Virus record (IMG/VR): IMGVR_UViG_3300040751_002651
Location: 1 to 29,538 of that record
Direction: 5' to 3' (one strand)
Length of the DNA stretch: 29,538 bases
Source of the DNA: a virus
This document shows, piece by piece, positions 1,850-19,189 of this stretch. The notes under the pieces were generated by a model. The model was not told the origin of the DNA and did no database searches. It was given only the letters and a program-made list of their open reading frames with translations. The position numbers and the translations under genes are program-made. Positions within the stretch are counted from its first letter, which is position 1, and every line of letters begins with the position of its first letter.

Positions 1850-4800
1850 ATGGGGTTTGCTACCTATCTTTCAGGCAGAGTTAAAACAGCTACAGGATCT
1901 GATCTTGACTCCGATCGCAGTAGTTATCTCGATTTAAAAAATGCTGAACCGAACTTAGGAAATCCAGGTACAAATGACGAAGTAGTACTTTCAAAAGCCG
2001 ATGGTACACGCTTCTTTGCAACCCTCGGTAATTTACTTTCCTACGATGGTAATAACGGATCGATTAACGTCGATTCAGCACAAGTTGTTGGTATTATTCA
2101 AGGTGAGGGTATTGACTCGGATCTGGTACAGGATCTTGTCGATTCTGCTTACGTTCAAGCTCGTCAATCATATGATGCGAGTACACTGGCAGGTGAATTA
2201 CCTTCGTTTTACTTGAATTGGAATAACTTTAGTAACATTCCAGATTTTGTTGATAGCGCAGATGTTAGCGCTATTATTTTAAATGACGTAGACAGTGCGT
2301 ACGTAAGTGCTCGCGCGTTTGATCAAACCTTAAACACTACAGATTCTGCTGTATTTGCAGGATTAACACTAGGTAGTGCTGGAAACCAGTATGTGTTCCC
2401 GACAGTAGACGGTACAGCTGGATATGCTCTTATTACTGATGGCAACGGGCAATTAACGTTTTCCTTTATTGATGTGGGTGTTGACTCTGCATCTATTTTA
2501 GATATCCTTTCGAATGGTAGTGTTGATACATTAAACTTTACTAATTCATCTTCGATTTTATCTTGGGATTCAGCAGCTGCTAAACTTGACTTTACATCAG
2601 GTATTCAGGTCAATGGCGATATTGCAGTAACTGGCACAGTTGATGGGCGTGATGTTGCTACAGATGGTGCTAAGTTAGACGGTATTGAAGCAAACGCAAA
2701 AGACGACCAGACGATTACTGCAGGCGCTGGTTTAACCGGTGGTGGTACAGGTGACGTAACATTAAACGTCGGTGAAGGTTTTGCTATTAGTGTAGATTCC
2801 AACTCAGTTAGTGTTGTAGAAGCTGCGATTAATCACAATTCGCTTTTAAACTTTGATTCAGATAAACACCTTGCTCACTCGTCAATTAGTATTACAGCAG
2901 GAGCAGGTTTAGTTGGTGGCGGAACTATTGCTGCAAATCGTAGTATTGCAGTTGGTGCCGGTACAGGTATCACGGTTGATTCCGATTCTATCAGTGTTGA
3001 TCCATCGACAATTAACCACGACGACCTTTTAGGATTTGTACTATTTGAACACGTAGATCACTCTGGCGTATTAATTAACGCCGGTGCAGGTCTTACCGGT
3101 GGTGGTAGTATTACATCAAGCCGTACTTTAAACGTAGGTGCTGGTACAGGCATTACAGTGGATTCCGATACTGTAAGCGTAAATGAAGCTGCAGTTAACC
3201 ATGACAACCTAGCTGGTTATGTAGCAAACGAACATATTAACCACTCTTCGATTTCTATTACTGCTGGTGCTGGCCTAACAGGCGGCGGTGATCTTACAGC
3301 TCCAAGAACTCTTGATATCGGTGCTGGTACAGGTATTAGCGTTAGTGTAAATGCGGTTTCAACTAATGACTCGCAGATCGTGCACGACAACCTTTCAGGG
3401 TTTGTTGCCGATGAACATATTGCACACTCGAATGTTAGTATTATTGCAGGTGCGGGTTTAACAGGTGGTGGTGATATTAGTGCTAGCCGTACATTAAACA
3501 TTGGTGCAGGAACAGCTATTACGGTTGATTCAGATTCAATCAGTGTAAATGAAGGTGCTATTAACCACGATAACCTTAGCGGCTTTGTATCCAACGAGCA
3601 TATTAACCACAGCTCAGTAAGCATTATAGCTGGCGATGGTTTAAGTGGTGGTGGCGATTTAACTGCTAGCCGTACTTTAAATATTGGCGCCGGTACAGGT
3701 ATTACCGTAGATTCTGATGGTATTTCTACAAATGATTCGCAGATTGTACACGATAACCTAAGCGGCTTTGTGGCTAATGAACATATTAACCACTCTGGTG
3801 TAAATATTATTGCTGGTGCAGGTCTTACCGGTGGTGGTGATATCACTGCATCACGTACTTTAAATATTGGTGCAGGCACAGGTATTACCGTAGCAGCTGA
3901 TTCAATTAGCGTAAACGAATCTGCTATTAACCACGATAACCTAAGCGGCTTTGTAGCTAACGAACACATCGATCATAGTACAGTAACATTTACTGCTGGT
4001 GCAGGTCTTACCGGTGGTGGCGATTTAACTGCAAATAGAACATTTAATATCGGTGCTGGCACAGGTATTACGGTTGACTCTGATACAGTTAGCGTAAATG
4101 AAAGCCAGATTAATCATGATAACTTAAATGGATTTGTAGCCAACGAACACATTAACCACTCGAATGTGGTTCTTACAGCTGGTGCAGGTCTTACTGGTGG
4201 TGGTGATTTAACTGCTAGCCGTACGTTTAACATCGGTGCTGGTACTGCAATTGTAGTTGACTCAGATACTGTAAGTGTTAACGAAGGAGCACTCAACCAT
4301 GACAACCTTCTTGGCTTTGTGGGAAATGAGCATATTGACCACTCAACAGTTAGCATTACAGCCGGTGCAGGTCTTACCGGTGGTGGGGATCTTACCACTA
4401 CACGTACACTAAACATCGGTGCTGGAACAGGTATTACTGTTGCAGCTGACTCAATCAGTGTTAACGAATCTACAATTAACCACGATAATCTGCTTAACTT
4501 CGTAGCTGATGAACATGTTGCTCACAGTGGAGTAACTATGACTGCTGGCGCTGGTTTAACTGGCGGTGGTACAATTGCAGCAAGCAGAACATTTAACGTA
4601 GGTGCTGGTACAGGCGTTACTGTTACTGCCGATGCTGTGTCAATTGGACAAGATGTTGCAACAACCGCAAACGTTACATTTAACCAGCTTACTACTACAA
4701 GTGATGTTGTAATTGGCGGTAACCTTCAGGTAACTGGTACAACGACTACTGTAGATACCCAATCGCTTCAAGTTAGCGATAACATGATCTATATGAATGC

Positions 4801-7561
4801 TGGTGAATCTGATGGATCACCTACACAATCAATTGACGTTGGTTGGGCAGCAAACGTTAATGATGGTGGTTCATATACTCACGTAGGTATGTTCCGTGAT
4901 GCTACAGATGATCGCTTTAAAGTCTTTGGTGCATATACTCCAGAACCAGATGCTGCTCTTGAAATTAATACAGGTCATGCCTCATTTGCTCTTGCAGATT
5001 TCCAGGCAGCTACATTCTATGGCGCATTAAGTGGTAATGCCACCACTGCTAGCTCATTAGCAACTGCTAGAACCATTAGCTTAACTGGTGACGTTAGCGG
5101 TTCTACATCATTCGATGGCTCAGCAAACGTATCAATTACAGCAGTCGTAGCAGACAACAGCCATAACCACACAACAGGTAATATTACTGGATTTACTGAA
5201 GCAGTACAAGATATCATTGGCGCAGACGTTATCGGTGGAAGCGGTATCACAGTAACCTATAACGACACTACTGGCGATACAACAATTGCTCATACTGATA
5301 CATCAACTCAAGCAAGTGTTGATAACTCAAATGGTACTGTTATCCAAGATATTTCTTTGGATGGGTTTGGTCATATCACTGGCATTGGCTCTGTAAACCT
5401 TGACAGTCGTTACTATACTGAAACTGAAGCAGATAGTCGTTTCGTAAATGTTACCGGCGATACGATGACTGGCACTTTAGACTTTAACGGTACTGGTCGC
5501 TTAATTACTATTACTGGTGACGGTTCACTAGATGGAGCGGATGCAAGTATTTACTTAGGTAATGCACCAGCAAGTTATGGTTTTGATATAACATATGAAG
5601 GTACTGGTACTGGAAATGAAAATGCCTTTGTTATTACATCAACAAATGCTGGAACCCCTAAAGAACTTCTTAGAGCAAATCAAGATGGCATTGTAAATCT
5701 ACCTCAAACTGGAGCTAAAGTAGCAGGTAATACCATCTTTCACGATGGCTACCATCCTAATGCGGACAAATGGACAACAGCCCGTACACTGTCATTAACG
5801 GGTGATGTAACAGGTTCAGTGTCGATTGACGGCTCGGCTAATGCTAGTATTACCACAACAATTGCTGCTAGCCCAGTTCTTACTATTAATGGTGATGCAT
5901 CAGGTTCAGCTACATTTACTAACTTAGGTAATGCGACATTAACATTAACAATTGCAGATGATAGTCATAATCACGTTATTTCAAATGTTGATGGCTTACA
6001 GACAGCATTAGATGCCAAAGCTGATGAAACTATTACCATTACAGCTGGTGCCGGTTTAACTGGTGGTGGTAACTTAACTGCTAACCGTACAATTAGTCAC
6101 GCGGATACGAGCACGCAGGCGAGCGTAAGTAATACTGGTAATAACGTAATTCAAAGCCTTACACTTGACACCTATGGGCATATTACTGCTATTAGCAGCT
6201 TAGATCTTGATACAGAATTTGATAGTCGTTATGTAAGTGTTACTGGCGATACGATGACTGGTTCGTTGGCAATTAATGCTAATGATGCTTCAATTACTTT
6301 AAATGATACAAGTGGAAGTCCAACTGATCAGGGAATTCGTATTAGGGCTGAGTCTCTTGATACAAATCTTCCGGGTAGTGAAGGTTTAGGTATTATATTC
6401 GAGGAAAGCCCTACAAATGGTAGCCCAGATACTACACCTGCTGTAATTACTACCGGCGAGTTTTACGCCCAATCGGATCAAAAAGTATTCCACGATAACT
6501 ATCATCCAAATGCTGACAAGTGGACTACAGCTCGCACACTGACACTAACTGGCGCAGTTACAGGCTCAGCGTCAATCGATGGTTCCGGTAATGTATCTCT
6601 TTCCACTGCAGCAACATCCGACCCAACTTTAACAATCAATGGTGATGCATCTGGTTCAGCTACGTTCACGAACTTAGGTAATGCTACCCTTACGCTAACC
6701 ATTGCAGACGATAGCCACAATCATGTTATCTCAAACGTTGATGGATTACAGGCAGCACTTGACGCTAAACTTAATGCTTCAGCATATACCGCAAATGATG
6801 TTTTAACCAAAATTAAAACAGTTGATGGTGCTGGATCTGGTTTGGATGCTGATTTACTTGATGGTCAGCAAGGATCTTACTACCTTGATTATAATAACTT
6901 AACTAACGTGCCAAATGCGGCGTCGGTAAATGATAATACCATTACTATTGCACCTGGTACGAATATGACTGGTGGTGGATCATTTACAGTTAACCAGAAC
7001 TTTAATGAAACCATTACTATTAACCACGCTGACACAAGCTCACAAGCAAGCGTAAACAATAGCAATGGTACTGTTATTCAAGATATTACTCTTGATGGTA
7101 ATGGACACGTAACAGGTATTGGTTCCGTAAACCTCGATAGTCGTTACTACACCGAAACAGAAGCAGACAGCCGCTTTGTAAATGTTACCGGTGATACTAT
7201 GACTGGCAACCTGACTATGTCAAATGCCAACATCGTTATGGACGAATATGTCGTTAACTCACAAACTGCTACCGTAGCTTCTACTTCAGCTACACAGATC
7301 GCAGCATTTACTGCATCAACCTACGGATCAGCTGAAGTATTAATCACTGCTAAAACTGGTACTGAAAGACATATTAGCAAGCTACTAATCGTACACGACG
7401 GTACAACCGCATCAGCGACTGAGTATGGTAAAATCGCAACAGCAGGAGATCTTGCAACATACGAAGTTGATATTAGCGGTGGTAACGTAAGAATCCTTGC
7501 AACTGGGGCAACAGCTACTTCTACAGTATATAAAGTGGCACTTACACTGATGGACGCATAA
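1850..7561 (+). CDS. Giant repeat-rich tail fibre protein (fibre 1, 1903 aa)
   Basis: ATG 1850 follows the previous stop by one base. The order of parts is as follows. The N-terminal region (about residues 1-285) has several DSA/DSD motifs (VDSAYVQARQ, VDSADVSAI, VDSAYVSAR) and a DGRDVATDGAKLDGIEA module. Ten tandem ~61-residue repeats occupy residues 289-896, with a degenerate eleventh after them. A mixed fibre shaft follows, containing DSHNH (HxH) segments, three RY-VNVTGDTMTG-type modules, the HPNADKWTTAR module and a further GAGLTGGG unit. The C-terminal ~106 residues (MDEYVVNS to the end) match a tip domain that recurs on marine phage fibres (HDGTTASATEYG region). The protein is almost all beta and Gly/Thr/Ser/Asp-rich, as expected of a trimeric fibre. 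The likely role is a long tail fibre for host recognition, the counterpart of T4 gp34-gp37 in function rather than by alignment. Which part attaches to the baseplate is unknown. Confidence 0.88.
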   Translation: MGFATYLSGRVKTATGSDLDSDRSSYLDLKNAEPNLGNPGTNDEVVLSKADGTRFFATLGNLLSYDGNNGSINVDSAQVVGIIQGEGIDSDLVQDLVDSAYVQARQSYDASTLAGELPSFYLNWNNFSNIPDFVDSADVSAIILNDVDSAYVSARAFDQTLNTTDSAVFAGLTLGSAGNQYVFPTVDGTAGYALITDGNGQLTFSFIDVGVDSASILDILSNGSVDTLNFTNSSSILSWDSAAAKLDFTSGIQVNGDIAVTGTVDGRDVATDGAKLDGIEANAKDDQTITAGAGLTGGGTGDVTLNVGEGFAISVDSNSVSVVEAAINHNSLLNFDSDKHLAHSSISITAGAGLVGGGTIAANRSIAVGAGTGITVDSDSISVDPSTINHDDLLGFVLFEHVDHSGVLINAGAGLTGGGSITSSRTLNVGAGTGITVDSDTVSVNEAAVNHDNLAGYVANEHINHSSISITAGAGLTGGGDLTAPRTLDIGAGTGISVSVNAVSTNDSQIVHDNLSGFVADEHIAHSNVSIIAGAGLTGGGDISASRTLNIGAGTAITVDSDSISVNEGAINHDNLSGFVSNEHINHSSVSIIAGDGLSGGGDLTASRTLNIGAGTGITVDSDGISTNDSQIVHDNLSGFVANEHINHSGVNIIAGAGLTGGGDITASRTLNIGAGTGITVAADSISVNESAINHDNLSGFVANEHIDHSTVTFTAGAGLTGGGDLTANRTFNIGAGTGITVDSDTVSVNESQINHDNLNGFVANEHINHSNVVLTAGAGLTGGGDLTASRTFNIGAGTAIVVDSDTVSVNEGALNHDNLLGFVGNEHIDHSTVSITAGAGLTGGGDLTTTRTLNIGAGTGITVAADSISVNESTINHDNLLNFVADEHVAHSGVTMTAGAGLTGGGTIAASRTFNVGAGTGVTVTADAVSIGQDVATTANVTFNQLTTTSDVVIGGNLQVTGTTTTVDTQSLQVSDNMIYMNAGESDGSPTQSIDVGWAANVNDGGSYTHVGMFRDATDDRFKVFGAYTPEPDAALEINTGHASFALADFQAATFYGALSGNATTASSLATARTISLTGDVSGSTSFDGSANVSITAVVADNSHNHTTGNITGFTEAVQDIIGADVIGGSGITVTYNDTTGDTTIAHTDTSTQASVDNSNGTVIQDISLDGFGHITGIGSVNLDSRYYTETEADSRFVNVTGDTMTGTLDFNGTGRLITITGDGSLDGADASIYLGNAPASYGFDITYEGTGTGNENAFVITSTNAGTPKELLRANQDGIVNLPQTGAKVAGNTIFHDGYHPNADKWTTARTLSLTGDVTGSVSIDGSANASITTTIAASPVLTINGDASGSATFTNLGNATLTLTIADDSHNHVISNVDGLQTALDAKADETITITAGAGLTGGGNLTANRTISHADTSTQASVSNTGNNVIQSLTLDTYGHITAISSLDLDTEFDSRYVSVTGDTMTGSLAINANDASITLNDTSGSPTDQGIRIRAESLDTNLPGSEGLGIIFEESPTNGSPDTTPAVITTGEFYAQSDQKVFHDNYHPNADKWTTARTLTLTGAVTGSASIDGSGNVSLSTAATSDPTLTINGDASGSATFTNLGNATLTLTIADDSHNHVISNVDGLQAALDAKLNASAYTANDVLTKIKTVDGAGSGLDADLLDGQQGSYYLDYNNLTNVPNAASVNDNTITIAPGTNMTGGGSFTVNQNFNETITINHADTSSQASVNNSNGTVIQDITLDGNGHVTGIGSVNLDSRYYTETEADSRFVNVTGDTMTGNLTMSNANIVMDEYVVNSQTATVASTSATQIAAFTASTYGSAEVLITAKTGTERHISKLLIVHDGTTASATEYGKIATAGDLATYEVDISGGNVRILATGATATSTVYKVALTLMDA
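2714..4537 (+). repeat. Ten tandem 61-aa (183-bp) fibre repeats
   Basis: Units start at 2714, 2891, 3074, 3257, 3440, 3623, 3806, 3989, 4172 and 4355; a degenerate eleventh begins at 4538 and dissolves by about 4650. The first unit is 177 bp and the other nine are exactly 183 bp. The consensus begins ITAGAGLTGGGDLTASRTL, continues NIGAGTGITVDSDSISVNE, and ends INHDNLSGFVANEHINHS plus three residues. Three histidines (NHD and EHxxH) are present in all ten units. The amino-acid sequence is much more conserved than the DNA: codons for GAGLTGGG differ from unit to unit. All units are in frame within fibre 1. Confidence 0.95.
5741..5820 (+). repeat. Fibre module copy A (partner at 12521-12600)
   Basis: This 80-base stretch encodes HDGYHPNADKWTTARTLSLTG and a few more residues. 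By hand alignment it matches 12521-12600 in fibre 2 at 74 of 80 bases. The related copy in the same gene at 6491-6570 matches it at only 62 of 80. The module itself is a known recurring fibre element; the closeness across genes is the notable part. Confidence 0.8.
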
Positions 7562-7562
7562 T

Positions 7563-8270
7563 ATGGGTATTGCTTATAATACGAGTATAGTTCGTGATGG
7601 ACTAGTTTTGCATTTGGACCCGGCAAATATTAAATGTTTTTCCGGTGGTCAAACTACTTGTGCTAATATAATTACAGGCGGACTAATTACCGGGGCGGCT
7701 GGTAGTCCTGGGTCCGCCGGCCATACCCCAAACCCTAATAACTTTCCGGCATATAATTCCATTAACGGGGGAGTTTTCGACTTTGCTGGGGGAAAGGGTA
7801 TGAATGTCGAAGAAGATTTAGGGGCTCATTCTCAGTTTTCTATAGAAATTTGGTATTATAAAAATGGCTCTGCTACAACTCAATATTTCACCGATGCTAG
7901 AAATAATGGTGGGCAATGGTTTTTAAGTAACTATAGTAATTATAACATAAACTATCAAGGTGCTGCTTATTATAATTTCGACACTACATATAATGTATCA
8001 AATACCGATTTTATAAACAGATGGCAGCATATGATATTTACAAGTGATATATCAGGTTCTAATTTATACATCGATGGTACACAAAGGGCTTTAGTTGCGG
8101 ACAACTCGGTAACAGAAAATTTAGGTGTAAATTTTAGGATAGGAACTCGTTATACTACTAGTAGTCAATGGACAGGCTATATGGGCCCTATTAGAATTTA
8201 TAATAGGACTTTGTCAATTGCTGAGGTTAAACAAAACTTTCAAGCACATCGTGGGAGATATGGGATATGA
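7563..8270 (+). CDS. LamG/concanavalin-like adhesin protein 1
   Basis: This is a 235-residue protein starting at ATG 7563, one base after the fibre 1 stop; no strong ribosome binding site is visible, so translation may be coupled. The N-terminus (TSIVRDGLVLHLDPANIK) and the central WYY...IDGT...IGTRY and YMGPIRIYNRTLSIAEVKQ segments follow the Laminin-G_3/ConA-like jelly-roll pattern: the W-H before a strand, then YIDG, then RIYNRTLS-EV. The C-terminus (KQNFQAHRGRYGI) is shared with the next gene. The likely role is a virion-associated carbohydrate-binding or fibre-tip protein. It forms a tandem set with the two following genes (4-base ATGA overlap with the next). Codon use is richer in ATA and AGG than in the fibre before it, compatible with separate acquisition. 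Ligand unknown. Confidence 0.8.
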   Translation: MGIAYNTSIVRDGLVLHLDPANIKCFSGGQTTCANIITGGLITGAAGSPGSAGHTPNPNNFPAYNSINGGVFDFAGGKGMNVEEDLGAHSQFSIEIWYYKNGSATTQYFTDARNNGGQWFLSNYSNYNINYQGAAYYNFDTTYNVSNTDFINRWQHMIFTSDISGSNLYIDGTQRALVADNSVTENLGVNFRIGTRYTTSSQWTGYMGPIRIYNRTLSIAEVKQNFQAHRGRYGI

Positions 8271-8914
8271 GTCTAGGTCACGGCGCTTCAATAGTTAGAA
8301 ATAATTTGAAATTACAGACAGATATTAGTAATGTTAAATCATATTCTGGTTCAGGCAATTGGAAAAGTTTAATTGATGGTAGTGGTTCTATATCCGGTGG
8401 AAATTCGGTATACGGGACTCCGACATGGGCAGATGGAATGACTGCCATTACAATATCTGTTGTTCTTTCAGTTGAAGGGACAGATACAAATTACGCATAT
8501 AATCCTATAAAAAAATTTTCTAATACAACAACTGCAACATTTGCATTATATCACTTTCAACAGTTCACTGATAATTTAAGAACAAATCTGATTGGTATGT
8601 ATGCAAATGCCGGAGGAACTTGGCAAGCAATATCATCTCAATATTTTGCCACTCAAGGTAATACCTATATTATAGATTTTCAATATGACTCTAATACTGG
8701 TGGGCAATTATGGATAAATGGAGAAAAAATTGGTAGTAGGTCTGGTTCTAGGGGTGTTCTGGGGACCGATACTGCTCCAATAACTATTGACGGTGGTCCT
8801 ACTGGAAGAAGTGGAATCCACACTGTGAAATATGCAGCAATTTATGATGCAGAACTAACTGATAATGAACTTAAACAAAATTTCGAAGCACTTCGCGGAA
8901 GGTACGGTATCTAA
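8267..8914 (+). CDS. LamG/concanavalin-like adhesin protein 2
   Basis: This is a 215-residue protein with ATG 8267 inside the ATGA overlap with the preceding stop; GGAG at 8254-8257 lies 9 bases upstream, inside the codons for RGR of the previous protein. The N-terminus (ASIVRNNLKLQTDISNVK) is alignable by eye to that of the previous protein (TSIVRDGLVLHLDPANIK), and the C-termini are nearly the same (LKQNFEALRGRYGI against VKQNFQAHRGRYGI). The middle has the jelly-roll signature GGQLWINGEKIGS...VKYAAIYDAELTDNELK. It is therefore a diverged paralogue with the same predicted LamG-like fold. Role inferred as glycan or receptor binding on the virion. The next gene overlaps its stop by one base (TAATG). 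Confidence 0.78.
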   Translation: MSLGHGASIVRNNLKLQTDISNVKSYSGSGNWKSLIDGSGSISGGNSVYGTPTWADGMTAITISVVLSVEGTDTNYAYNPIKKFSNTTTATFALYHFQQFTDNLRTNLIGMYANAGGTWQAISSQYFATQGNTYIIDFQYDSNTGGQLWINGEKIGSRSGSRGVLGTDTAPITIDGGPTGRSGIHTVKYAAIYDAELTDNELKQNFEALRGRYGI

Positions 8915-10605
8915 TGGCAGGTAATTCAGGACCTAAAATCGATAGAGAATCATTACTTCTTTCTTTTACCCCAGAGTCTTCTATTTTAAATCCTACCGTA
9001 ACTGACTTATATTCTCCTAAAAAAACTGGTGCAGATAATAAATGGATGATATTAACTACAACTTCTTATCTTTTTGCGGGGTTCGAAGATAATACTGAAA
9101 TTTATGCAAATGGGATATTAAAAGACACTTTAAATAGACAACAAATAAAATCTATTTCTTTATCTGCTAATGATATTATTAGTTCCAATAAGCCTATTTC
9201 ATTTTCTAGATCAGGCGCTGGACAAACTGGGATATGTTATGCTTGGGCTGGTACCCAATTTATACACAGCGTAGATAGATATAATATTAGCTTTTATTTT
9301 GTGGCAACTTCTGTCCCAGCAAATGTTACTGTTAAAGATTCTAGAAATCTTTCTGCTACATATTGGTCTGGAACTGTCGCTACAGATTCTTATACTACAA
9401 TAAATGTCGGGGACACCAATTCTCAATTTATTTTTGAATCCGATCAACCTATAGCAGTTTATACTGGTGAATTATCTAGTTCTGACTGTATGCCAATGTA
9501 TCCTTGTACCACTGAAGTATTTGGTACGGGGTCGAGTGGTTCTCATATTTTAGCAATTGAAGATAATACTACTATAAGTGAATATGCTACTGATGGTTAC
9601 TCTAGGACATTTACATTAAATCGTGGTGCTTTTACATCAGGATATGCAGGTGGATCTCAATTTACTGGAGCATCTGTAAGATTAGTAGCAGATAAACCTA
9701 TTGCTGCAGAGTCTCAAGCTGATGCTGATGGTGGTGAAATGACACCCTATGTGGGCAAAGATGCATTTGGTATTCGATTTGTAATACCTGAAAATGAGAG
9801 AGAATTTGTTAAAATTGTATCAGATCAACCAGCAGTAATTAAAACCTATAGGTCAAATGGCACTCAAATCGGCACATATACTTTAGTTGGATCAAGCTCT
9901 AATCAGGTTTATAACTATAGACTAACTGGTGAATCATCGTACGAAGGAACCTTAATAGTTAGTGATGTTCCAGTATATTGTATATACGAAGGCGCGCTGG
10001 ATGATGAAACTGTATTATTTGCATCTGATACTGAAAACTCGGTAGTGGTAGGATCTATTGCTCCTATTATTTCGCATGGTAATAATAGGTCTAAAATAGC
10101 TTTAAATAAATATAATTTTAAAACTAAAGTAATAGATGATAAAGTAAAAACTGTTTCAGTCAATACTGATATTACTTTTACAGCTGGCAATAGTTCTCCT
10201 TTAACCGCTATAAGCTGGGTGAAAACTGATTCTGTTGGCTCAATTCAATCTATTATTCATACTACCGATTTTACTTTAGAATTAGATGCTACAAATAAAA
10301 TAAAAGTAACCCATAATTCATCATCCCAATCTTTCGGAAGTTCTTTATCTCAAAATGTATGGTATCATGTAGGATATTCGTACAATGGATCTGGCACGGG
10401 TTATATTTATTTAGATGGAAATTTAATAGGTACTTTATCTGTTTCAGGTACTTCAAGCACAGCTAGAAATATTAGTATTGGGACTGATAACAGTTCTTCT
10501 AATTATTTTTCCGGAGAAATAGAAAAAGCTTTAGTATATTCTAAATATTTAACTTCCAATAGGATTAAAAAGAATTATCTTACATTTAATAGAAGATATA
10601 AATAA
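8914..10605 (+). CDS. Adhesin with N-terminal SDxP-repeat domain and C-terminal LamG-like domain
   Basis: This is a 563-residue protein; ATG 8914 overlaps the previous TAA by one base, with AAGG at 8899-8902. Residues ~45-390 carry a repeated beta-strand pattern centred on (S/A)D-x-P: SNKPISF, SDQPIAVYTGE, ADKPIAAESQADADGG, SDQPAVIKTY, SDVPVYCIYEG. This resembles IgGFc-binding-type repeat domains seen in phage and bacterial surface proteins, by resemblance only. Residues ~420-563 are LamG/ConA-like (AISWVKTDS, WYHVGYSYNG, GYIYLDGNLIGTL, GEIEKALVYSKYLTSNRIK) and end in KKNYLTFNRRYK, a relaxed form of the C-terminal motif of the two previous proteins. It is likely a virion adhesin. The last codons (TAT AAA TAA) overlap a late-promoter octamer. 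The gene is AT-rich with many ATA, TTA and AGA codons. Confidence 0.75.
   Translation: MAGNSGPKIDRESLLLSFTPESSILNPTVTDLYSPKKTGADNKWMILTTTSYLFAGFEDNTEIYANGILKDTLNRQQIKSISLSANDIISSNKPISFSRSGAGQTGICYAWAGTQFIHSVDRYNISFYFVATSVPANVTVKDSRNLSATYWSGTVATDSYTTINVGDTNSQFIFESDQPIAVYTGELSSSDCMPMYPCTTEVFGTGSSGSHILAIEDNTTISEYATDGYSRTFTLNRGAFTSGYAGGSQFTGASVRLVADKPIAAESQADADGGEMTPYVGKDAFGIRFVIPENEREFVKIVSDQPAVIKTYRSNGTQIGTYTLVGSSSNQVYNYRLTGESSYEGTLIVSDVPVYCIYEGALDDETVLFASDTENSVVVGSIAPIISHGNNRSKIALNKYNFKTKVIDDKVKTVSVNTDITFTAGNSSPLTAISWVKTDSVGSIQSIIHTTDFTLELDATNKIKVTHNSSSQSFGSSLSQNVWYHVGYSYNGSGTGYIYLDGNLIGTLSVSGTSSTARNISIGTDNSSSNYFSGEIEKALVYSKYLTSNRIKKNYLTFNRRYK
10597..10604 (+). promoter_or_regulatory. T4-type late promoter (TATAAATA)
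   Basis: An exact TATAAATA octamer, the T4 late promoter element read by the gp55 sigma factor family, lies 35 bases before the GTG start of fibre 2. It is embedded in the final Tyr-Lys-stop codons of the preceding adhesin gene. The same octamer precedes four other late genes in this window, which supports function. Confidence 0.7.
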
Positions 10606-10639
10606 TAAGAAATAGAACGCCGAAGGGGAGAGTGGAACC

Positions 10640-13600
10640 GTGGCAAACGATAAAAGATTCGTAGTAAAAAATGGTCTAGAAGCTCAAAATGTAAAATTTG
10701 TAGATTCAGCTCAGACCGGTGATATTACAGTCAGTATGATTGATAGCGATACTTTATCGTTTTCCGGAACTGCTGGCCAGTTATTTTCAATTACAGATTC
10801 ATTAACTGGTACTATATTTTCGGTTAATGATATTTCTGGTATTCCCTCAATTGAAGTTGATGATGATGGTACAGTTCGTTTAGCCGAATTTGCTGGTAAC
10901 GTTCTTATTGGTACTGATAGTGATGATGGTACAAATAAACTTCAAGTTAATGGCACAGTATCAGCAACATTCCTCGGAGATCTTACCGGTAATGTTACAG
11001 GTAATGCCAGCACGGCATCAACATTAGAAACTGCTCGCACAATTTCATTGGGTGGTGTTTTATCAGGTTCTGCATCGTTTGATGGTAGCTCAAACATTAC
11101 TATTACTGCGGCACATACATCTGATCCAACAATTACCCTAACTGGTGCAGTTACTGGCACTGGCACAATGACAAATCTGGGTAACGTAAGCATTACTACA
11201 ACCCATACTGCAGATCCAACCCTTACTCTTGCAGGCGATCTTACAGGTTCTGCCACATTTACTAATCTCGGTAATGCGACATTAACAGCAACTATTGCTG
11301 CTAATTCTGTTGCTCTTGGTACAGATACTACCGGTAACTATGCAGGTTCTGTTGTAGCTGGTAATGCAATTACAGTAAATGGCACAGCAGGTGAAGGCAC
11401 ATTTTTTACCGTAAATCACGCTGATACATCTACTCAAGCAAGTGTGAATAATAGCAACGGAACTGTTATTCAAGATGTTACCTTAGACACTTACGGTCAC
11501 GTTACTGGTTTAACTAGCCTTAATCTTGATAGCAGATATTACACCGAAACTGAAGCAGATAGCAGATTTGTAAATGTTACCGGTGATACGATGACTGGTG
11601 ATCTTACATTAGATAGCGGCCATGATCTTATTGTGGATAGCCAATCTGGGGTAAAAACTTCGGGATCTTGGATAAGAGCTACTACGGGTAGTGGTTATAT
11701 TGATTTAGGCCCAGCTAATACATCTTATGCTCATATTTACACAGATCGACCTGAATTTTATTTTAATAAAAATTTGAGAGTCCTTGGTGATGTCGTATGG
11801 ACAGCAGGTAATGATGGTGCCGGCACTGGTCTGGATGCTGACTTATTAGACGGTCAACACGGTAGCTACTATACAGGTTATACCGATACAGCGATTTCTA
11901 ACTTAATTAACTCTGCGCCCGGTGCTCTTGATACCTTAAACGAACTTGCAGCTGCATTAGGCGATGATCCAAACTTTGCGACAACTGTAACAAATAGTCT
12001 TGCTACAAAAGCTGATAAAACTACAACGATTAGTGCTGGAACAGGTTTAACAGGCGGCGGCGATTTAAGTTCTAATCGTACTATTCAGCACGCGGATACC
12101 TCATCACAAGCGAGTGTAAACAATAGCAACGGTACAGTCATTCAAGACGTAACACTTGATGGATTTGGTCATGTTACCGGATTAGGGAGTGTAAATTTAG
12201 ATAGTCGCTATGTAAATGTTACCGGCGATACTATGAGTGGTGATCTCACTATTAGTAAAGCCGATGCAAAAATAAGATTATATGATAACAGTGGTACTAG
12301 TGGTAATAATCCATTTATTGAATGGGATACTACGGCTAACCAGGGTATAAAAATGGAGTTAAATGTTTATGATGGTGAGTTACCTGAAGCAGGATATGGT
12401 CTTGTTGTTGGTCCATCTACAACAAACGCTCAATGGCCTACAACTGGCGATTTAAGTTTTAGTGTACTAGGGGAGATTTATGCAGGTTCTGAAAGCCTTA
12501 GTACTGTAAATCGGGTATTCCACGACGGCTACCATCCCAATGCGGACAAATGGACAACAGCTCGTACACTGTCATTAACTGGTGCTGTAACAGGTTCTGT
12601 ATCAATTGATGGCTCTGGTAACGTATCTCTTGCTACTACTGCCACATCAGATCCTACCATTACATTAACCGGTGCCGTAACTGGTAGCGGTACCATGACA
12701 AATCTGGGTAACGTAAGTATTACAACAACAGCTACTGCCGATCCAACTCTTACTCTTACAGGTGATGCGACTGGTTCTGCGACATTTACCAATCTCGGTA
12801 ACGCATCACTAGCAGTCACAGTTGATAGAATAGATGGTGTTGCATTTAGAAATACAAATAGTGGCGGCGCTGTAAATGCTGATACTTTAAATGAAGCAGG
12901 TCACACATATTATAATGCCGGCGTAACAAACTTTAGTGGAAACGCAACAGATGGTGCATTATATTCTCAAGTATATAGTTCATCTTGGCAGCATCAAATT
13001 GCCGGTGATTATAGATCAGGAAGAATTGCTGTTAGAGGTAAGAATAACGGTACCTGGCAATCTTGGCAATCTGTATTCTCTGATAATTATCATCCAAATG
13101 CTGATAAGTGGACCACAGCTCGCACACTATCATTAACGGGTGATGTTACTGGATCAACTACTTGGGATGGTTCTGGTAATGCTAGTATAACAGCTACTGT
13201 TGCTAACGATAGCCACAATCACAGTTCTTCTTCAGGCAACTTTACAGTTGGCGGGGATTTAACAGTAAGTGGTGGTCAAGTCGGAGTAAGCACTGCTAGT
13301 ACAAGACACAAGTACTCTCTTTATGGGAATGATGCTAGTTATGCTATAGGTATGCAAAGCGCAATTACCTATGGCGGTCTAAATGATTGGGCTATGACGT
13401 TCCAATTTAATAATGAAGCTGATCGCGGTTTCTGGTGGGGTGATGTATCACATACTACAGCACAAGGTGCTATGGCACTTACTACAGGTGGCCTTTTAAC
13501 AGTTGCTTCAGGTATTCGTGTTGGTTATGGTGAAGCCGATACAACTACGCCATCTGCGGGTCTTCAGGTATCCGGAAATATTTCTGTAACTGGTACAGTC

Positions 13601-15112
13601 GATGGACGTGACGTTTCAGCAGATGGTTCAAAGCTAGACGGTATTGAAGCTGGTGCTACTGCAGACCAAACCATTACCGCAGGTGGTGGTTTAACTGGTG
13701 GTGGTACAGGTAACGTAACTATCAGTCACGCGGACACTAGCGCGCAGGGAAGCGTAAACAATAGCAATGGTACAGTTATTCAAGATATCACTCTTGATAC
13801 CTATGGCCATATTACTTCTCTTGCTAGCGTAAACCTTGACGGTCGTTATTATACCGAAACAGAGGCAGATAGTAGATTCGTAAATGTTACCGGTGATACA
13901 ATGACTGGTGCTCTTACAATGCAAGCACCAATTGTTATTGACCAAAACGGTAATAACGGTAATATTGCATATGAAGTTTCTGGCGGATGTTATATACCGA
14001 GACCTCTCGGTGGTTCATATAAAACTGCTACTTCCTCTATTACCGGTTCTGTAGCAGTTAAACTTCCTACACAATCTTGGAACCAGTCTGATATGCTTTC
14101 ATTCTGGGTTGATATTTTTGATTATGCAGGTAATCCGCAAGGTGAAAGTGTATCCTTACATATTTACGGTTATCAATATAGTACTGGTAACTGGACAAAC
14201 GTAGGTGCTTTGGTTCTTTCAGATAGAACAGACCGTGATTATAACGTTCGATTCGGACACGATGGTACACGCCACATCGTATACATCGGTGAAACAAATA
14301 GCACCTGGTCTTATCCGCAGGTTAATGTCAGGGATTTCCAAGCGGGATATAATGCATCTTATGCAAACTATGATGATGCTTTTGCAGTTACATTTGAAAC
14401 ATCCCACTCTAACATTCAAAATACTGCTTCAAATAACTACCCAGTAGCAAAACAATTTGAAGTAGCACGTAACATTGCACTTTCGGGTGCAGTTACTGGT
14501 AACGCTAACTTTGATGGTTCTGGTAACATTACGATTAGCACAACTGCGACATCAGATCCAACCCTGACTATTAATGGTGATATTAGCGGTAGTGCTACAT
14601 TTACTAACTTAGGTAATGCTACATTAACTGCCAATATTGCAGCAAATGTCGTTGGTGCAAATGAACTTAATGTATCAGGAAATGGTACAGCAGGACAAGT
14701 ACTTAAATCTGATGGTGACGGATCGTTTACTTGGATCGATGCTGGTGGTGGTATTCAGTTTAGTAGAAAAACTTCTAATTATACGGCAGTAGTTAACGAA
14801 GGTATTATTGCTGACACAACTTCAGGGACATGGACATTAACCTTGCCATCTGCACCAGCTACTGGCGATCAGGTAATTGTAGCAGACGGCGGAAGCTGGG
14901 CCGTTACTAATCTTACTATTGGACGTAACGGTAAAACCATCGAAGGCGTAGCAGATAACTATCTTCTTGATGTAACAGGTGCGCAAGTACAGTTTATTTA
15001 CGATGGAACAACGTGGCAGGTATATTCAAATCCAGGTATTGTTCATAGTAACGATAGTCTTACAATATATAACTCTACTGGTACTGCTTTGAAAACTATT
15101 TATAGCGCATAA
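10640..15112 (+). CDS. Second large tail fibre protein (fibre 2, 1490 aa), GTG start
   Basis: GTG 10640 is chosen because a strong AAGGGGAG (10623-10630) lies 9 bases upstream and the protein begins MANDKRFVVKNGL, a typical N-terminus of marine phage fibres. The shaft has the same module types as fibre 1: TARTISL-G--SGSASFDGSSN units, SATFTNLGNATLT units, HADTS-QASVNNSNGTVIQD units, YYTETEADSRFVNVTGDTMTG units, a DGRDVSADGSKLDGIEA module, and one HxH (SHNH) near 13214. A pyocin-knob-like domain lies at about residues 730-815 (NEAGHTYYNAG, GALYSQVYSSSWQHQI, NNGTWQSWQSVF). The C-terminal ~120 residues (FSRKTSNYTAVVNEG to FIYDGTTWQVYS) form a fibre end domain found on many phage fibres. Function: host-binding tail fibre, expressed from its own late promoter at 10597. 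It shares module DNA with fibre 1. Confidence 0.88.
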   Translation: MANDKRFVVKNGLEAQNVKFVDSAQTGDITVSMIDSDTLSFSGTAGQLFSITDSLTGTIFSVNDISGIPSIEVDDDGTVRLAEFAGNVLIGTDSDDGTNKLQVNGTVSATFLGDLTGNVTGNASTASTLETARTISLGGVLSGSASFDGSSNITITAAHTSDPTITLTGAVTGTGTMTNLGNVSITTTHTADPTLTLAGDLTGSATFTNLGNATLTATIAANSVALGTDTTGNYAGSVVAGNAITVNGTAGEGTFFTVNHADTSTQASVNNSNGTVIQDVTLDTYGHVTGLTSLNLDSRYYTETEADSRFVNVTGDTMTGDLTLDSGHDLIVDSQSGVKTSGSWIRATTGSGYIDLGPANTSYAHIYTDRPEFYFNKNLRVLGDVVWTAGNDGAGTGLDADLLDGQHGSYYTGYTDTAISNLINSAPGALDTLNELAAALGDDPNFATTVTNSLATKADKTTTISAGTGLTGGGDLSSNRTIQHADTSSQASVNNSNGTVIQDVTLDGFGHVTGLGSVNLDSRYVNVTGDTMSGDLTISKADAKIRLYDNSGTSGNNPFIEWDTTANQGIKMELNVYDGELPEAGYGLVVGPSTTNAQWPTTGDLSFSVLGEIYAGSESLSTVNRVFHDGYHPNADKWTTARTLSLTGAVTGSVSIDGSGNVSLATTATSDPTITLTGAVTGSGTMTNLGNVSITTTATADPTLTLTGDATGSATFTNLGNASLAVTVDRIDGVAFRNTNSGGAVNADTLNEAGHTYYNAGVTNFSGNATDGALYSQVYSSSWQHQIAGDYRSGRIAVRGKNNGTWQSWQSVFSDNYHPNADKWTTARTLSLTGDVTGSTTWDGSGNASITATVANDSHNHSSSSGNFTVGGDLTVSGGQVGVSTASTRHKYSLYGNDASYAIGMQSAITYGGLNDWAMTFQFNNEADRGFWWGDVSHTTAQGAMALTTGGLLTVASGIRVGYGEADTTTPSAGLQVSGNISVTGTVDGRDVSADGSKLDGIEAGATADQTITAGGGLTGGGTGNVTISHADTSAQGSVNNSNGTVIQDITLDTYGHITSLASVNLDGRYYTETEADSRFVNVTGDTMTGALTMQAPIVIDQNGNNGNIAYEVSGGCYIPRPLGGSYKTATSSITGSVAVKLPTQSWNQSDMLSFWVDIFDYAGNPQGESVSLHIYGYQYSTGNWTNVGALVLSDRTDRDYNVRFGHDGTRHIVYIGETNSTWSYPQVNVRDFQAGYNASYANYDDAFAVTFETSHSNIQNTASNNYPVAKQFEVARNIALSGAVTGNANFDGSGNITISTTATSDPTLTINGDISGSATFTNLGNATLTANIAANVVGANELNVSGNGTAGQVLKSDGDGSFTWIDAGGGIQFSRKTSNYTAVVNEGIIADTTSGTWTLTLPSAPATGDQVIVADGGSWAVTNLTIGRNGKTIEGVADNYLLDVTGAQVQFIYDGTTWQVYSNPGIVHSNDSLTIYNSTGTALKTIYSA
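12521..12600 (+). repeat. Fibre module copy B (partner at 5741-5820)
   Basis: This matches 5741-5820 in fibre 1 at 74 of 80 bases by hand count and encodes the same HDGYHPNADKWTTARTLSLTG segment. It is much closer than the within-gene relatives at 6491 and about 13080, suggesting exchange between the two fibre genes. Confidence 0.8.
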
Positions 15113-15121
15113 GGAATAAAA

Positions 15122-15958
15122 ATGGTACAAAAATTATCAGATAGATTCGGATTAGATGGTGTAATTACCGCAGCAAACCTTGCTAGTAATTTGCCCCCTT
15201 CGGTTATTACTACTAGCAATATTAGTAGTTATGTATCTGCTACACCTCAATCTATTACCCCTACGCTAACCGGCGATTCTTCTTGGACGATCGGTTTTAA
15301 TTATGAATTAACTATTTCTAATTATGCTAGTTATAGTAATGCAGTATTTTTTTGGCAAATGTTAAACAACGCGGGGATAATAGTTGATTCTGGATCACTT
15401 AGTGGAGATGATCTTATTACAATACCTAAAGGTATATTCGATAACTCGCCCCATACTATTAACGTATATGCTATGGAACCAGGAAAATTAACATCTTCTA
15501 AAGCTACTAAGTCTTTAGGAAATGCTGCTTACCCTTCGGTTAGATATATTAGACTTGATAATATCATAGGTGAAACCCCGACTGGCTCAAATGGTGGTGT
15601 CGGGGAATTTAGAGTATATAGTGGGGCTGGACAGAGCGGAACGGATTTAGCGCCTACATCAATTACTGCAAGTTACCAATATTCTGCAACTTATGCTCCT
15701 TCTAGAGCACGAGATGGTAATGTTAATACTATGTGGTGGACATTGGGTAGCTCAGCACCGCAATGGCTACAATATGATTTCGGATCTTCTGTTTCTATAG
15801 GAAGCTTTAGAATTAATCCCTATGGTAATGGTACTAGTTATACTTTTAATGTTGGACGTATTATTGGTAGTAATACAGGATCATTTACCGGTGAAGAAAT
15901 AGTTTTTTATGACGATATATCAACTGTAGGCCTCGGCGGTCCATTAGACTTAGGATAA
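15122..15958 (+). CDS. Discoidin (F5/8 type C)-like adhesin
   Basis: This is a 278-residue protein, ATG 15122 with AAGGA at 15111-15115. Residues 1-~45 are a short linker-like start (MVQKLSDRFGLDGVITAANL). Residues ~46-130 look like a beta-sandwich of Ig type (SWTIGFNYELTISNY, FFWQMLNNAGIIVDSG, HTINVYAMEPG). Residues ~138-262 match the discoidin/F5-8 C pattern: YPSVRYIRLDN, GEFRVYSG, SYQYSATYAPSRARDGN, TMWWT, PQWLQYDFGSSVSIGSFRI. This fold commonly binds glycans or lipids. Placed after a fibre and before its probable chaperone, it is likely a receptor-binding or fibre-associated protein. Its codon use is AT-rich, like the lectin cassette. Binding partner unknown. Confidence 0.78.
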   Translation: MVQKLSDRFGLDGVITAANLASNLPPSVITTSNISSYVSATPQSITPTLTGDSSWTIGFNYELTISNYASYSNAVFFWQMLNNAGIIVDSGSLSGDDLITIPKGIFDNSPHTINVYAMEPGKLTSSKATKSLGNAAYPSVRYIRLDNIIGETPTGSNGGVGEFRVYSGAGQSGTDLAPTSITASYQYSATYAPSRARDGNVNTMWWTLGSSAPQWLQYDFGSSVSIGSFRINPYGNGTSYTFNVGRIIGSNTGSFTGEEIVFYDDISTVGLGGPLDLG

Positions 15959-15962
15959 TAAA

Positions 15963-16292
15963 ATGAACATTTATGAAAATAGTATACTTTTAGAAGAAAG
16001 CCAGCTAGTAAAGGATACTTTAAATCTAGCTTTACAAGGTTTAGATTTTTCTGTAGAAGAAGATCTTACAAAATATTTGTCTATTATTCCTACGGTTAGA
16101 TCTGATGGATTAGACTATATTTCGGCTATTAGAAAAAATAGAGATATTGAATTAACTCTTTCCGATTGGACCCAATTACCAGACACTAATGTTGATAAAA
16201 CCGCTTGGGCAAATTATAGACAAGCATTGCGTGATGTTCCGCAGCAAGAGGGATTTCCTTATAGTATTATTTGGCCAGCTAAACCGGCATAA
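15963..16292 (+). CDS. Tail fibre assembly chaperone (Phage_tail_APC-like)
   Basis: This is a 109-residue protein, ATG 15963 with AGGA at 15952-15955 just before the preceding stop. The C-terminal half carries the hallmark of the phage tail assembly chaperone family (I recall Pfam Phage_tail_APC): LSDWTQLPD at ~67-74, then W-x-x-YRQALRDVP at ~82-93, then GFPYSIIWPAKP at the end. Proteins of this family usually sit directly downstream of the fibre or adhesin they help fold or trimerise. Here the immediate upstream partner is the discoidin-like protein, with fibre 2 before it. The N-terminal 55 residues are less recognisable and may give partner specificity. The stop is followed within two bases by a late promoter for gene 13. 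Confidence 0.82.
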   Translation: MNIYENSILLEESQLVKDTLNLALQGLDFSVEEDLTKYLSIIPTVRSDGLDYISAIRKNRDIELTLSDWTQLPDTNVDKTAWANYRQALRDVPQQEGFPYSIIWPAKPA

Positions 16293-17080: not shown

Positions 17081-18007
17081 ATGGCAACGAATCACTATTT
17101 TAGCCAAAAGGTTAAATCAGAGCAGAATCTATACGAAGACATTATCATAGAATCTCTTAAGATCTATGGTCAAGACGTCTATTATCTTCCACGAGAACTC
17201 GTAGCCGAAGATAAGATTTTAGGCGAAGATATTCCATCACGTTTCCGTAATGCTTATAAAGTAGAAATGTACATCGAGAATACAGAAGGCTTTGATGGGG
17301 AAGGAGATCTTTTCACAAAGTTCGGCGTAGAAATTCGGGATCAAGCTACATTTGTATTAGCAAGAAGAAGATGGGCACAGACAGTCGGTAGATCAGATAA
17401 CACCATCAACACTGTTAGACCTCGTGAAGGCGATGTAATTTACTTACCACTATCAAACTCGATGTTCCAGATTATGGCGGTAGAACACGAACAGCCATTC
17501 TATCAGTTAAGTAATTTACCGACATATAAATTACGCTGTGAACTTTTCGAATACAGTGAAGAAGATTTCGATACAGGTGTGGAGATTATCGATGACGTCG
17601 AAAATCGTAACTCTTACACATATGTTGTTACTGTTGATAGTGCTAGCTTAGGATTCTATACAGGGGAAACCTTAACACAAACATTGGCAGACGGAACAGA
17701 AATTACCGGTGAATTGGTATCATTTAATCCTGATACACTTGTAATGGAAGTTATCCATGTCGGTGCAGATGATGGTAATTACCACTCATTTGTTTCAGGA
17801 AGATCTATTGTTTCTGATAGACCAAATGTTACAACTGATCCTATTACTCTGGTAGAAACAACAGAATATGCTGAAGCGATTGTTGTATCTGTTACCGAAG
17901 AAAACAATTTAAGTCAAAATGAAAAGAATGAATACTTTGAAACTACATCGTCAGATTTAGGATTCTTAGACTTTAGTGAAAGCAATCCGTTTGGAGATCC
18001 GCAATAA
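17081..18007 (+). CDS. 14: Neck protein gp14
   Basis: This is a 308-residue protein; the start MATNHYFSQKVKSEQNLYED and the LARRRWAQ...RPREGDVIYLPLS region are typical of gp14. T4 gp14 is about 256 residues. The extra length seems to lie at residues ~180-275, a beta-rich stretch (YVVTVDSASLGFYTG to DRPNVTTDP), which would decorate the neck; similar enlargement is known in marine T4-like phages. The AGGA site overlaps the end of gene 13. Its stop overlaps the gene 15 start by one base (TAATG), suggesting coupled translation. Confidence 0.92.
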   Translation: MATNHYFSQKVKSEQNLYEDIIIESLKIYGQDVYYLPRELVAEDKILGEDIPSRFRNAYKVEMYIENTEGFDGEGDLFTKFGVEIRDQATFVLARRRWAQTVGRSDNTINTVRPREGDVIYLPLSNSMFQIMAVEHEQPFYQLSNLPTYKLRCELFEYSEEDFDTGVEIIDDVENRNSYTYVVTVDSASLGFYTGETLTQTLADGTEITGELVSFNPDTLVMEVIHVGADDGNYHSFVSGRSIVSDRPNVTTDPITLVETTEYAEAIVVSVTEENNLSQNEKNEYFETTSSDLGFLDFSESNPFGDPQ

Positions 18008-18831
18008 TGTTACAGAATCATTTTTACCATGAAAGAATCCGCAAGAGTGTGGCGTTATTCGGTTCACTGTTTAATAATATCTACGTGATCCGTAAAGATA
18101 ATACCGATAAAGTAATTAATCAGTTGCGTGTACCATTATCATATGCACCGAGCACTAGCTTTCTTGACCGGATTCGTGAAAACACGGACTTAACAACTGA
18201 CACAAAGGTAGCAATTAAGCTACCTCGTATGTCATTTGAAATTACTTCGTATCAGTATGATTCACAGCGTCAGCTACAGAAAACTAACTCTCTTAATCGT
18301 GCTGCAGCAGATCCGAATAAAAGAAGTAAGATCTATACCTTTACACCTTACTTAATTTCTTTTCAGCTTAACATCTACGCTAAAACACAAGATGATGCGC
18401 TGCAAATTATCGAGCAGATTATACCATACTTTTCACCACAGTATACTTTAACGATTCGTCCATTTGCAGATTATAGCGATATTAAAGAGGACGTTCCGAT
18501 TACCTTAAATGGTATTAACTATTCGGATGCTTACGAAGGTGCTTTAGATCAAAGACGTATCATTCAGTATACATTAGACTTTACTATGCAAGCGAACTTC
18601 TATGGTCCGACGAGCGAACAGAGTATTATTCGTAAAGCAATTGTAGATTTCTATACAGGCAACGATATTGACTCAGATGGTGCATTTGCACTGTACAGTC
18701 CATCTTCCCGTATCACTGTAGAACCTAATCCGTTAAACGCAACAGCTGATAGCGACTACGGATTTACTACGAACATATATAGCATGGAAGATGGTGATAG
18801 TGATAAGGCAGGATGGCCGTATTATGAATGA
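18007..18831 (+). CDS. 15: Tail completion / sheath stabiliser gp15
   Basis: This is a 274-residue protein, close to T4 gp15 (272). The motifs LQNHFYHERIRKSVALFGSL, the VPLSYAPSTSFLDRI region, KLPRMSFEI and YTFTPYLISFQLNIYAKTQDD are typical of the family. Gp15 caps the finished tail as a hexamer and links the sheath to the neck. ATG 18007 overlaps the stop of gene 14; GGAG about 10 bases upstream can serve as ribosome binding site. Gene 16 begins 8 bases before its end. Confidence 0.93.
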   Translation: MLQNHFYHERIRKSVALFGSLFNNIYVIRKDNTDKVINQLRVPLSYAPSTSFLDRIRENTDLTTDTKVAIKLPRMSFEITSYQYDSQRQLQKTNSLNRAAADPNKRSKIYTFTPYLISFQLNIYAKTQDDALQIIEQIIPYFSPQYTLTIRPFADYSDIKEDVPITLNGINYSDAYEGALDQRRIIQYTLDFTMQANFYGPTSEQSIIRKAIVDFYTGNDIDSDGAFALYSPSSRITVEPNPLNATADSDYGFTTNIYSMEDGDSDKAGWPYYE

Positions 18832-19189
18832 TTCAGACAATTTTAAAAACGACTATGATTATTCAAGAGAAGTTCTTTACGATCTAATCGAAAAGGGTCG
18901 TGGAGCTTTAGAAGATATGATCGAGGTCGCGCGCTCGAGCGAGCACCCGCGTGCGTTCGAAGTACTATCTGGACTGATTAAAAATACAGCAGATGTAAAC
19001 GATAAGCTTCTTGATCTGAATAAGAAGCACAAAGATATTAATACAAAAGAAAAACCCCAGCAGGTTGCGGGTCAGACTACGAACAATCTGTTTGTAGGAT
19101 CAACTACTGACTTACAGCGTATGCTACAGAACCAAATGAAACCTGATAATGTGGTGGATATCACCCCGAGATTGAATGATAAAGAATGA
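18824..19189 (+). CDS. 16: Small terminase subunit gp16
   Basis: The start is set at ATG 18824 (121 residues: MNDSDNFKNDYDYSREVLYD...). A longer reading from 18791 would overlap gene 15 by 41 bases and add the unlikely segment MVIVIRQDGRI. The chosen start overlaps the gene 15 stop by 8 bases and has AGGA at 18810-18813. The helical SREVLYDLIEKGRGALEDM and RAFEVLSGLIKNTADVNDKLLDL segments match the helix-turn and coiled oligomerisation region of T4 gp16, which recognises viral DNA and stimulates the gp17 ATPase. It is shorter than T4 gp16 (164). Its 3' end overlaps gene 17 by 14 bases. Confidence 0.88.
   Translation: MNDSDNFKNDYDYSREVLYDLIEKGRGALEDMIEVARSSEHPRAFEVLSGLIKNTADVNDKLLDLNKKHKDINTKEKPQQVAGQTTNNLFVGSTTDLQRMLQNQMKPDNVVDITPRLNDKE

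Follow-up and report, generated by a model that had tools for sequence, protein, structure and literature searches.

The window considered here is the whole of IMG/VR virus record IMGVR_UViG_3300040751_002651 (positions 1 to 29,538), a 29.5 kb stretch of a marine, T4-like phage in which fibre genes are followed in T4-like order by gp13, gp14, gp15, gp16, gp17, gp18, gp19, gp20, gp21 and gp23. Three adjacent genes, hereafter A, B and C, are flanked by two large fibre-like genes (1850-7561 and 10640-15112) and overlap by 4 bases at the A/B junction (ATGA) and by 1 base at the B/C junction (TAATG). An initial annotation had described them as overlapping genes for LamG/ConA-like proteins placed between two fibre genes and sharing a C-terminal ending, referred to below as the tag, and their coordinates, endings and setting are all confirmed. 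The genes and their endings are as follows.

7563-8270, + strand: gene A, 235 residues, a single LamG_3/ConA jelly-roll module with a conserved N-terminal segment (SIVRDGLVLHLDPANIKCFSGG) and a C-terminal helix
8267-8914, + strand: gene B, 215 residues, a divergent LamG module whose start overlaps the stop of A
8914-10605, + strand: gene C, 563 residues, with a LamG core at the C-terminus (residues ~424-563) behind ~400 residues of repeat-like sequence
8229-8267, + strand: tag of A, KQNFQAHRGRYGI, the last part of the C-terminal helix (219-230), followed by RYGI
8873-8911, + strand: tag of B, KQNFEALRGRYGI
10567-10602, + strand: diverged tag of C, KKNYLTFNRRYK, in terminal helix 548-562; the next gene does not overlap

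The LamG assignment is clear for A and C, which score 59.4 bits (5.9e-16) and 66 bits (5.3e-18, residues 426-551) against Pfam PF13385 Laminin_G_3, above the cut-off of 27.6 bits, whereas B is a weak match that falls under it (19.1 bits, 0.0015). When the last 20 residues are left out of a LamG profile, it still matches all three proteins (1.5e-31 for A, 6.6e-16 for B and 1.1e-15 for C), and the common ending is thus not a product of chance. A and B can be aligned from residue 1 and are about 32% identical in a global alignment; with the last 14 residues removed, their bodies still score 47 as opposed to -32 ± 15 for shuffled sequence, so the two are homologous over the whole length and not in the tag alone. 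The AlphaFold model of A (predicted local distance difference test, pLDDT, of 79; predicted template modelling score of 0.82) together with Foldseek gives a beta-sandwich, the same fold as that of PF13385, and this fold is likewise found in the core of C, which is modelled at a pLDDT of 94-97 while the 412 residues preceding it mostly remain below 50. The closest solved structure to A is the carbohydrate-binding domain of AbnA (5hon, 5e-11), followed by the tailspike of the cyanophage Pan3 (9vyh, 1e-10); the other Foldseek neighbours include receptor-binding domains from other systems and the GC864 protein of cyanophage S-PM2. Single-protein queries of IMG/VR found no close relatives of A, B or C, although pattern scans of the same collection did retrieve members of the family, and the closest relative of B, 42% identical, was found in locus L103 immediately 3' of a fibre gene.

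In the model of A the tag lies in helix 219-230, directly after the last strand (205-213), with a pLDDT of 94-95 for residues 211-230 and of 85 for residues 231-235. The ending QNFxAxxGR[FY]Gx is present in A and B, while that of C is in register but diverged (1.9 bits against the profile), its model nonetheless ending in a helix. DNA scans for QN[FY]NAxxG[RS][FY]G followed by a stop retrieved at least 120 stretches from IMG/VR and 13 from among 84,980 bacterial and archaeal genomes, and 166 of the 167 tagged open reading frames in the retrieved loci match the LamG profile that lacks the last 20 residues, the sole exception being the 52-residue remainder of a short reading frame. Since QNF.A..GR[FY]G extends about 12 residues past both the Pfam LamG_3 model and the PDB sequence matches, the terminal helix is a feature of this particular phage LamG family, whose modules differ from PF13385 in adding this helical stretch and a conserved N-terminal segment. 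As modelled, the shared ending forms the C-terminal helix of a LamG module that is widespread among phages. Conservation is not limited to this end, which is the only one that the initial annotation had named: the C-terminus is indeed conserved, but so are the first residues of A and B, and in the family at large the first ~45 residues follow the pattern P.IVTDGLVL.LDAAN.KSYPGSGT.W.DLSG.

The codons of the tag appear to carry a second message. The last codons of A read CGT GGG AGA TAT GGG ATA TGA and those of B read CGC GGA AGG TAC GGT ATC TAA, so that at both junctions a -4/-1 stop-start overlap is combined with a Shine-Dalgarno site within the upstream gene, spaced 9 nucleotides from the next start at ATGA and 12 nucleotides at TAATG. 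C, the last gene and one without an overlapping successor, has lost the Gly-Arg signature; its end is devoid of Shine-Dalgarno potential (-1.0 kcal/mol) and is followed by a 34-base gap to the second fibre gene, which has a leader site of its own. The predicted sites are the following.

8253-8258, + strand: GGGAGA, Gly-Arg codons of the A tag and Shine-Dalgarno site for B, predicted anti-Shine-Dalgarno duplex of -7.3 kcal/mol
8897-8902, + strand: GGAAGG, Gly-Arg codons of the B tag and Shine-Dalgarno site for C, predicted duplex of -7.0 kcal/mol
near 10622, + strand: the second fibre gene's own leader Shine-Dalgarno sequence, GAAGGGGAG, -8.7 kcal/mol

The same arrangement is evident across the family, for which genes were de-duplicated by tail. 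The arginine of the Gly-Arg pair is encoded by AGG in 53 of 73 tagged genes that overlap their successor, compared with 27 of 123 that do not, and AGG makes up 11% of the arginine codons elsewhere in the same genes. The predicted anti-Shine-Dalgarno energy of overlapped LamG genes is -7.46 kcal/mol, as opposed to -5.47 after synonymous resampling (n=123), whereas that of non-overlapped LamG genes is -4.48 with a synonymous expectation of -4.58 (n=258; Mann-Whitney p = 2e-14), and the difference is reproduced in loci fetched by the N-terminal motif regardless of the tag (p = 1.7e-4). The choice of residue follows the same trend, as glycine precedes the arginine more often when the next gene overlaps (87/123, or 71%, against 131/258, or 51%; p = 2.5e-4), also in an independent set (10/22 against 19/90, p = 0.03). 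There is accordingly strong statistical support, at the level of sequence, for an RNA-level contribution to the conservation of the tag in the form of a predicted Shine-Dalgarno site for the next gene. Overlapping genes with -4/-1 junctions and translational coupling are known (PMC6728339, PMC10666635), and the short overlaps seen here are alike; the difference is that the Shine-Dalgarno codons here belong to a conserved motif of the protein. No paper describing the tag or the junction was found in a literature search.

Taken together, A, B and C are probably LamG/ConA family modules encoded in a coupled operon and acting as exchangeable adhesins, with an ending that serves both as a helix and as a Shine-Dalgarno site. 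The three proteins belong to a large, mostly phage-borne jelly-roll family and would be made from one translationally coupled operon within the fibre region; their most likely role, and the best that we can infer, is that of exchangeable proteins which bind glycans on the cell surface, as adhesins or as accessories to the fibres. The terminal Gly-Arg codons of the helix are predicted to serve at the same time as the Shine-Dalgarno site of the overlapping gene that follows, so that each module would carry the translation signal of its neighbour in its own last codons. This signal, along with the conserved first ~45 residues, would allow modules to be gained, lost or reordered with the operon left intact. 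The stronger proposition, that the ending is a true double code for RNA and protein, a portable Shine-Dalgarno/stop/start junction that makes the locus a plug-in adhesin array behind a fibre gene, seems to us evenly balanced. Several observations weigh against the interpretation. Kinship was ignored in the statistics, and the genes behind the p values are not independent by descent. Overlapping non-LamG genes of the same loci show a bias too, albeit a weaker one (-4.40 against -3.27), with predicted pairing at the LamG junctions being the stronger of the two, and the tag junction would thus be a strong case of a general rule, special only in its strength and in its use of a conserved peptide. 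For A and B taken singly the synonymous test is not significant (fractions of 0.11 and 0.30), since the peptide of the tag in itself tends to be encoded by Shine-Dalgarno-like codons (p = 3e-61 against other C-termini), and the support comes from the family. Many non-overlapped LamG genes retain much of the tag, which points to selection at the protein level as well. Finally, we infer both the virion location and the sugar binding of A-C.

The initial annotation had suggested that the common tail is a shared docking surface, by which variable lectins would plug into the tip of either fibre or into the baseplate. The flanking fibre genes, fibre 1 and fibre 2, are the following.

1850-7561, + strand: fibre 1, 1903 residues, T4 gp36/gp37-type repeats; Phage_T4_gp36 (2.2e-11); PHROGs long tail fibre distal subunit
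10640-15112, + strand: fibre 2, 1490 residues; Phage_T4_gp36 (3e-6); PHROGs match

Such a role would agree with the tag ranking with the best-conserved parts of the family and lying outside the Pfam and PDB matches, and with the fibre-like genes that are often its upstream neighbours, yet the distribution of the tag is difficult to reconcile with it. Six proteins of uncultured bacteria, Parcubacteria and Paceibacterota (Patescibacteria) have a type IV pilin-like start (GFTLLEILLV...) and keep the same LamG module and tag at their end in the absence of any fibre, so the tag is not confined to places where a partner fibre exists. It is also retained on carriers with N-terminal fusions, such as the 1058-residue virion protein of S-PM2, whose C-terminus consists of the module with a closely similar tag, and in locus L161 it stands between two fused modules. 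The upstream fibres end in several unrelated ways (16 in one C-terminal domain, 15 in an S74-type domain and many in others), and the C-terminus of fibre 1 has no significant homology to the common fibre end found upstream of other arrays. Conversely, fibres that share the C-terminal domain of fibre 1 can lack LamG neighbours: no LamG gene was found near this domain in the retrieved stretches of S-SM2, S-SRM01, S-TIM5, C48C1, DSL-LC02, S-SCSM2R and a marine single-cell virus. The N-terminal segment, moreover, is strongly conserved as well. A docking tag specific to these fibres was rejected on the grounds of its pilin-like and fused carriers, its position between modules and the fibres not paired with LamG genes; the shared ending is probably not a special docking tag, and the docking explanation as a whole is improbable, although a weak docking role may exist in addition to those in the fold and in the RNA. 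The pilin-like LamG proteins were seen in loci L131, L132, L135, L141 and L142, and an exchange of the LamG module between phages and adhesive pili is possible.

The preferred reading, that of exchangeable modules in a coupled operon, is further illustrated by the composition of the arrays. Among 185 arrays, 93 hold at least two modules and some as many as six neighbouring ones, and 94 of 154 junctions between neighbours are at -4 or -1. Members of the same array are about 33% identical, in line with the variable bodies that the initial annotation had proposed, compared with 31% between arrays; no pair exceeds 50%, and of 230 members only 10 are closest to another member of their own array. 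Although the adjacency of homologous genes could suggest a recent tandem duplication of one ancestral gene in this phage, these figures make it very improbable, as does the fact that B is closer to its relative in L103 than to A, and this origin was rejected with within- and between-array identities alike and nearest relatives mostly in other arrays. The number of LamG genes between the large fibre and gp13 also varies, from none in Phage C48C1 to one in Sf-CH1b and three in this stretch, while the fibre region of S-SKS1 encodes three LamG proteins with the tag, and three more lie near one another in a 735-kb uncultured phage. The arrays hence look swappable and expandable, as had been anticipated. 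Low G+C content at third codon positions in B (0.20) and C (0.16), compared with 0.28-0.48 in the head and tail genes, is consistent with recent acquisition of these two genes. A further protein of ~85 residues (M.ENR.(F/Y)MIF...EL..IDF.QV ... TKTF(V/I)KW(D/N)G ... EGPY..(S/E)EIL.IL) is repeatedly encoded within or next to LamG arrays, at L117:1492-1743, L034:2057-2317, L027:6778-7044, L055:3569-3826 and in about a dozen more loci; it has no Pfam or PHROG match and was not seen in the list of open reading frames of the present stretch.

As to where the proteins act, A begins at 7563, right after the gp37-like fibre 1 that ends at 7561, in the same manner as T4-type gp38 is encoded by a small gene directly 3' of a gp37-like fibre. 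A-C could accordingly be gp38-like tip adhesins that sit on the fibre through another surface, with the tag merely the end of the fold, a view with which the cyanophage tailspike as the second-best solved match of A, the fibre gene directly preceding the closest relative of B and the fibre assembly chaperone encoded nearby are all in accord. Three different adhesins on one tip would be unusual, and other phages build LamG modules into large structural proteins; no match to a gp38 family was found in Pfam or PHROGs, and the gp38 fold with its glycine-rich motifs presumably differs from that of A-C. The arrangement on the tip is plausible at somewhat less than an even chance, and it is compatible with the coupled adhesin operon, not exclusive of it. 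A role unconnected to the fibres, as decoration of the capsid or tail sheath or as secreted glycan binders, is suggested by the PHROG matched by A and B, which is filed under head and packaging as a virion structural protein. This category merely annotates large multi-domain proteins, and the genes lie inside the fibre cluster and are coupled to each other by stop-start overlaps, which leaves such a role rather unlikely.

The module of A-C, together with the same type of ending, is also found in T4-like marine phages, namely in T4-GC864 of cyanophage S-PM2, SWZG_00005, SWZG_00007 and SWZG_00008 of S-SKS1 and Syn1_217 of Syn1, of which the S-PM2 and Syn1 proteins are annotated as virion structural. 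In the cyanophages it mostly forms the C-terminal part of a larger protein, whereas A and B each encode the module on its own, within an array of overlapping genes. The Pan3 tailspike, in turn, is a protein of a cyanopodophage and is 15% identical to A, a similarity that was missed by the sequence search with A. Many aquatic phages have LamG lectin modules next to their fibre genes, in a role that is poorly understood, and a survey of jumbo phages linked Laminin G3 domains to tail fibres and other parts of the virion (PMC7824862). If the ending is indeed both a translation junction and the end of the fold, it would explain how highly diverged tandem modules can be shuffled with their expression kept. 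For annotators, the locus cautions that a conserved C-terminus does not need to signify a docking tag.

The N-terminal ~400 residues of C have no significant match in Pfam, the PDB, phages, the IMG/VR single-protein search or the retrieved loci, and the N-terminal segment of the protein scores -0.4 bits against the family profile for this segment. In 63 of 101 long family members the N-terminal segment comes first and the tag last, mostly with additional residues separating the segment from the core, and gene C may have this payload-insert layout in a diverged form. The region (8914-10140) holds several repeats with an SDxPxxxY-like motif, which may resemble IgGFc-binding-type repeats.

No near-identical phage genome was found in the phage collection, and the closest of the compared phage loci by gp13-gp16 is that of Phage C48C1 (Kyanoviridae), at 44-64% identity. 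Two further genes follow downstream of fibre 2.

15122-15958, + strand: F5/8 type C (discoidin-like) protein, directly after fibre 2 (Pfam, 2.3e-10)
15963-16292, + strand: fibre assembly chaperone Phage_tail_APC (Pfam, 7.9e-23)

The F5/8 type C gene, followed by Phage_tail_APC in the interval 15122-16292, represents a second small lectin-like gene placed directly behind a fibre. Further on, gp15 (18007-18831) and gp16 (18791-19189) overlap by 41 bases when taken from their first start codons, and the start of gp16 may be located further in.

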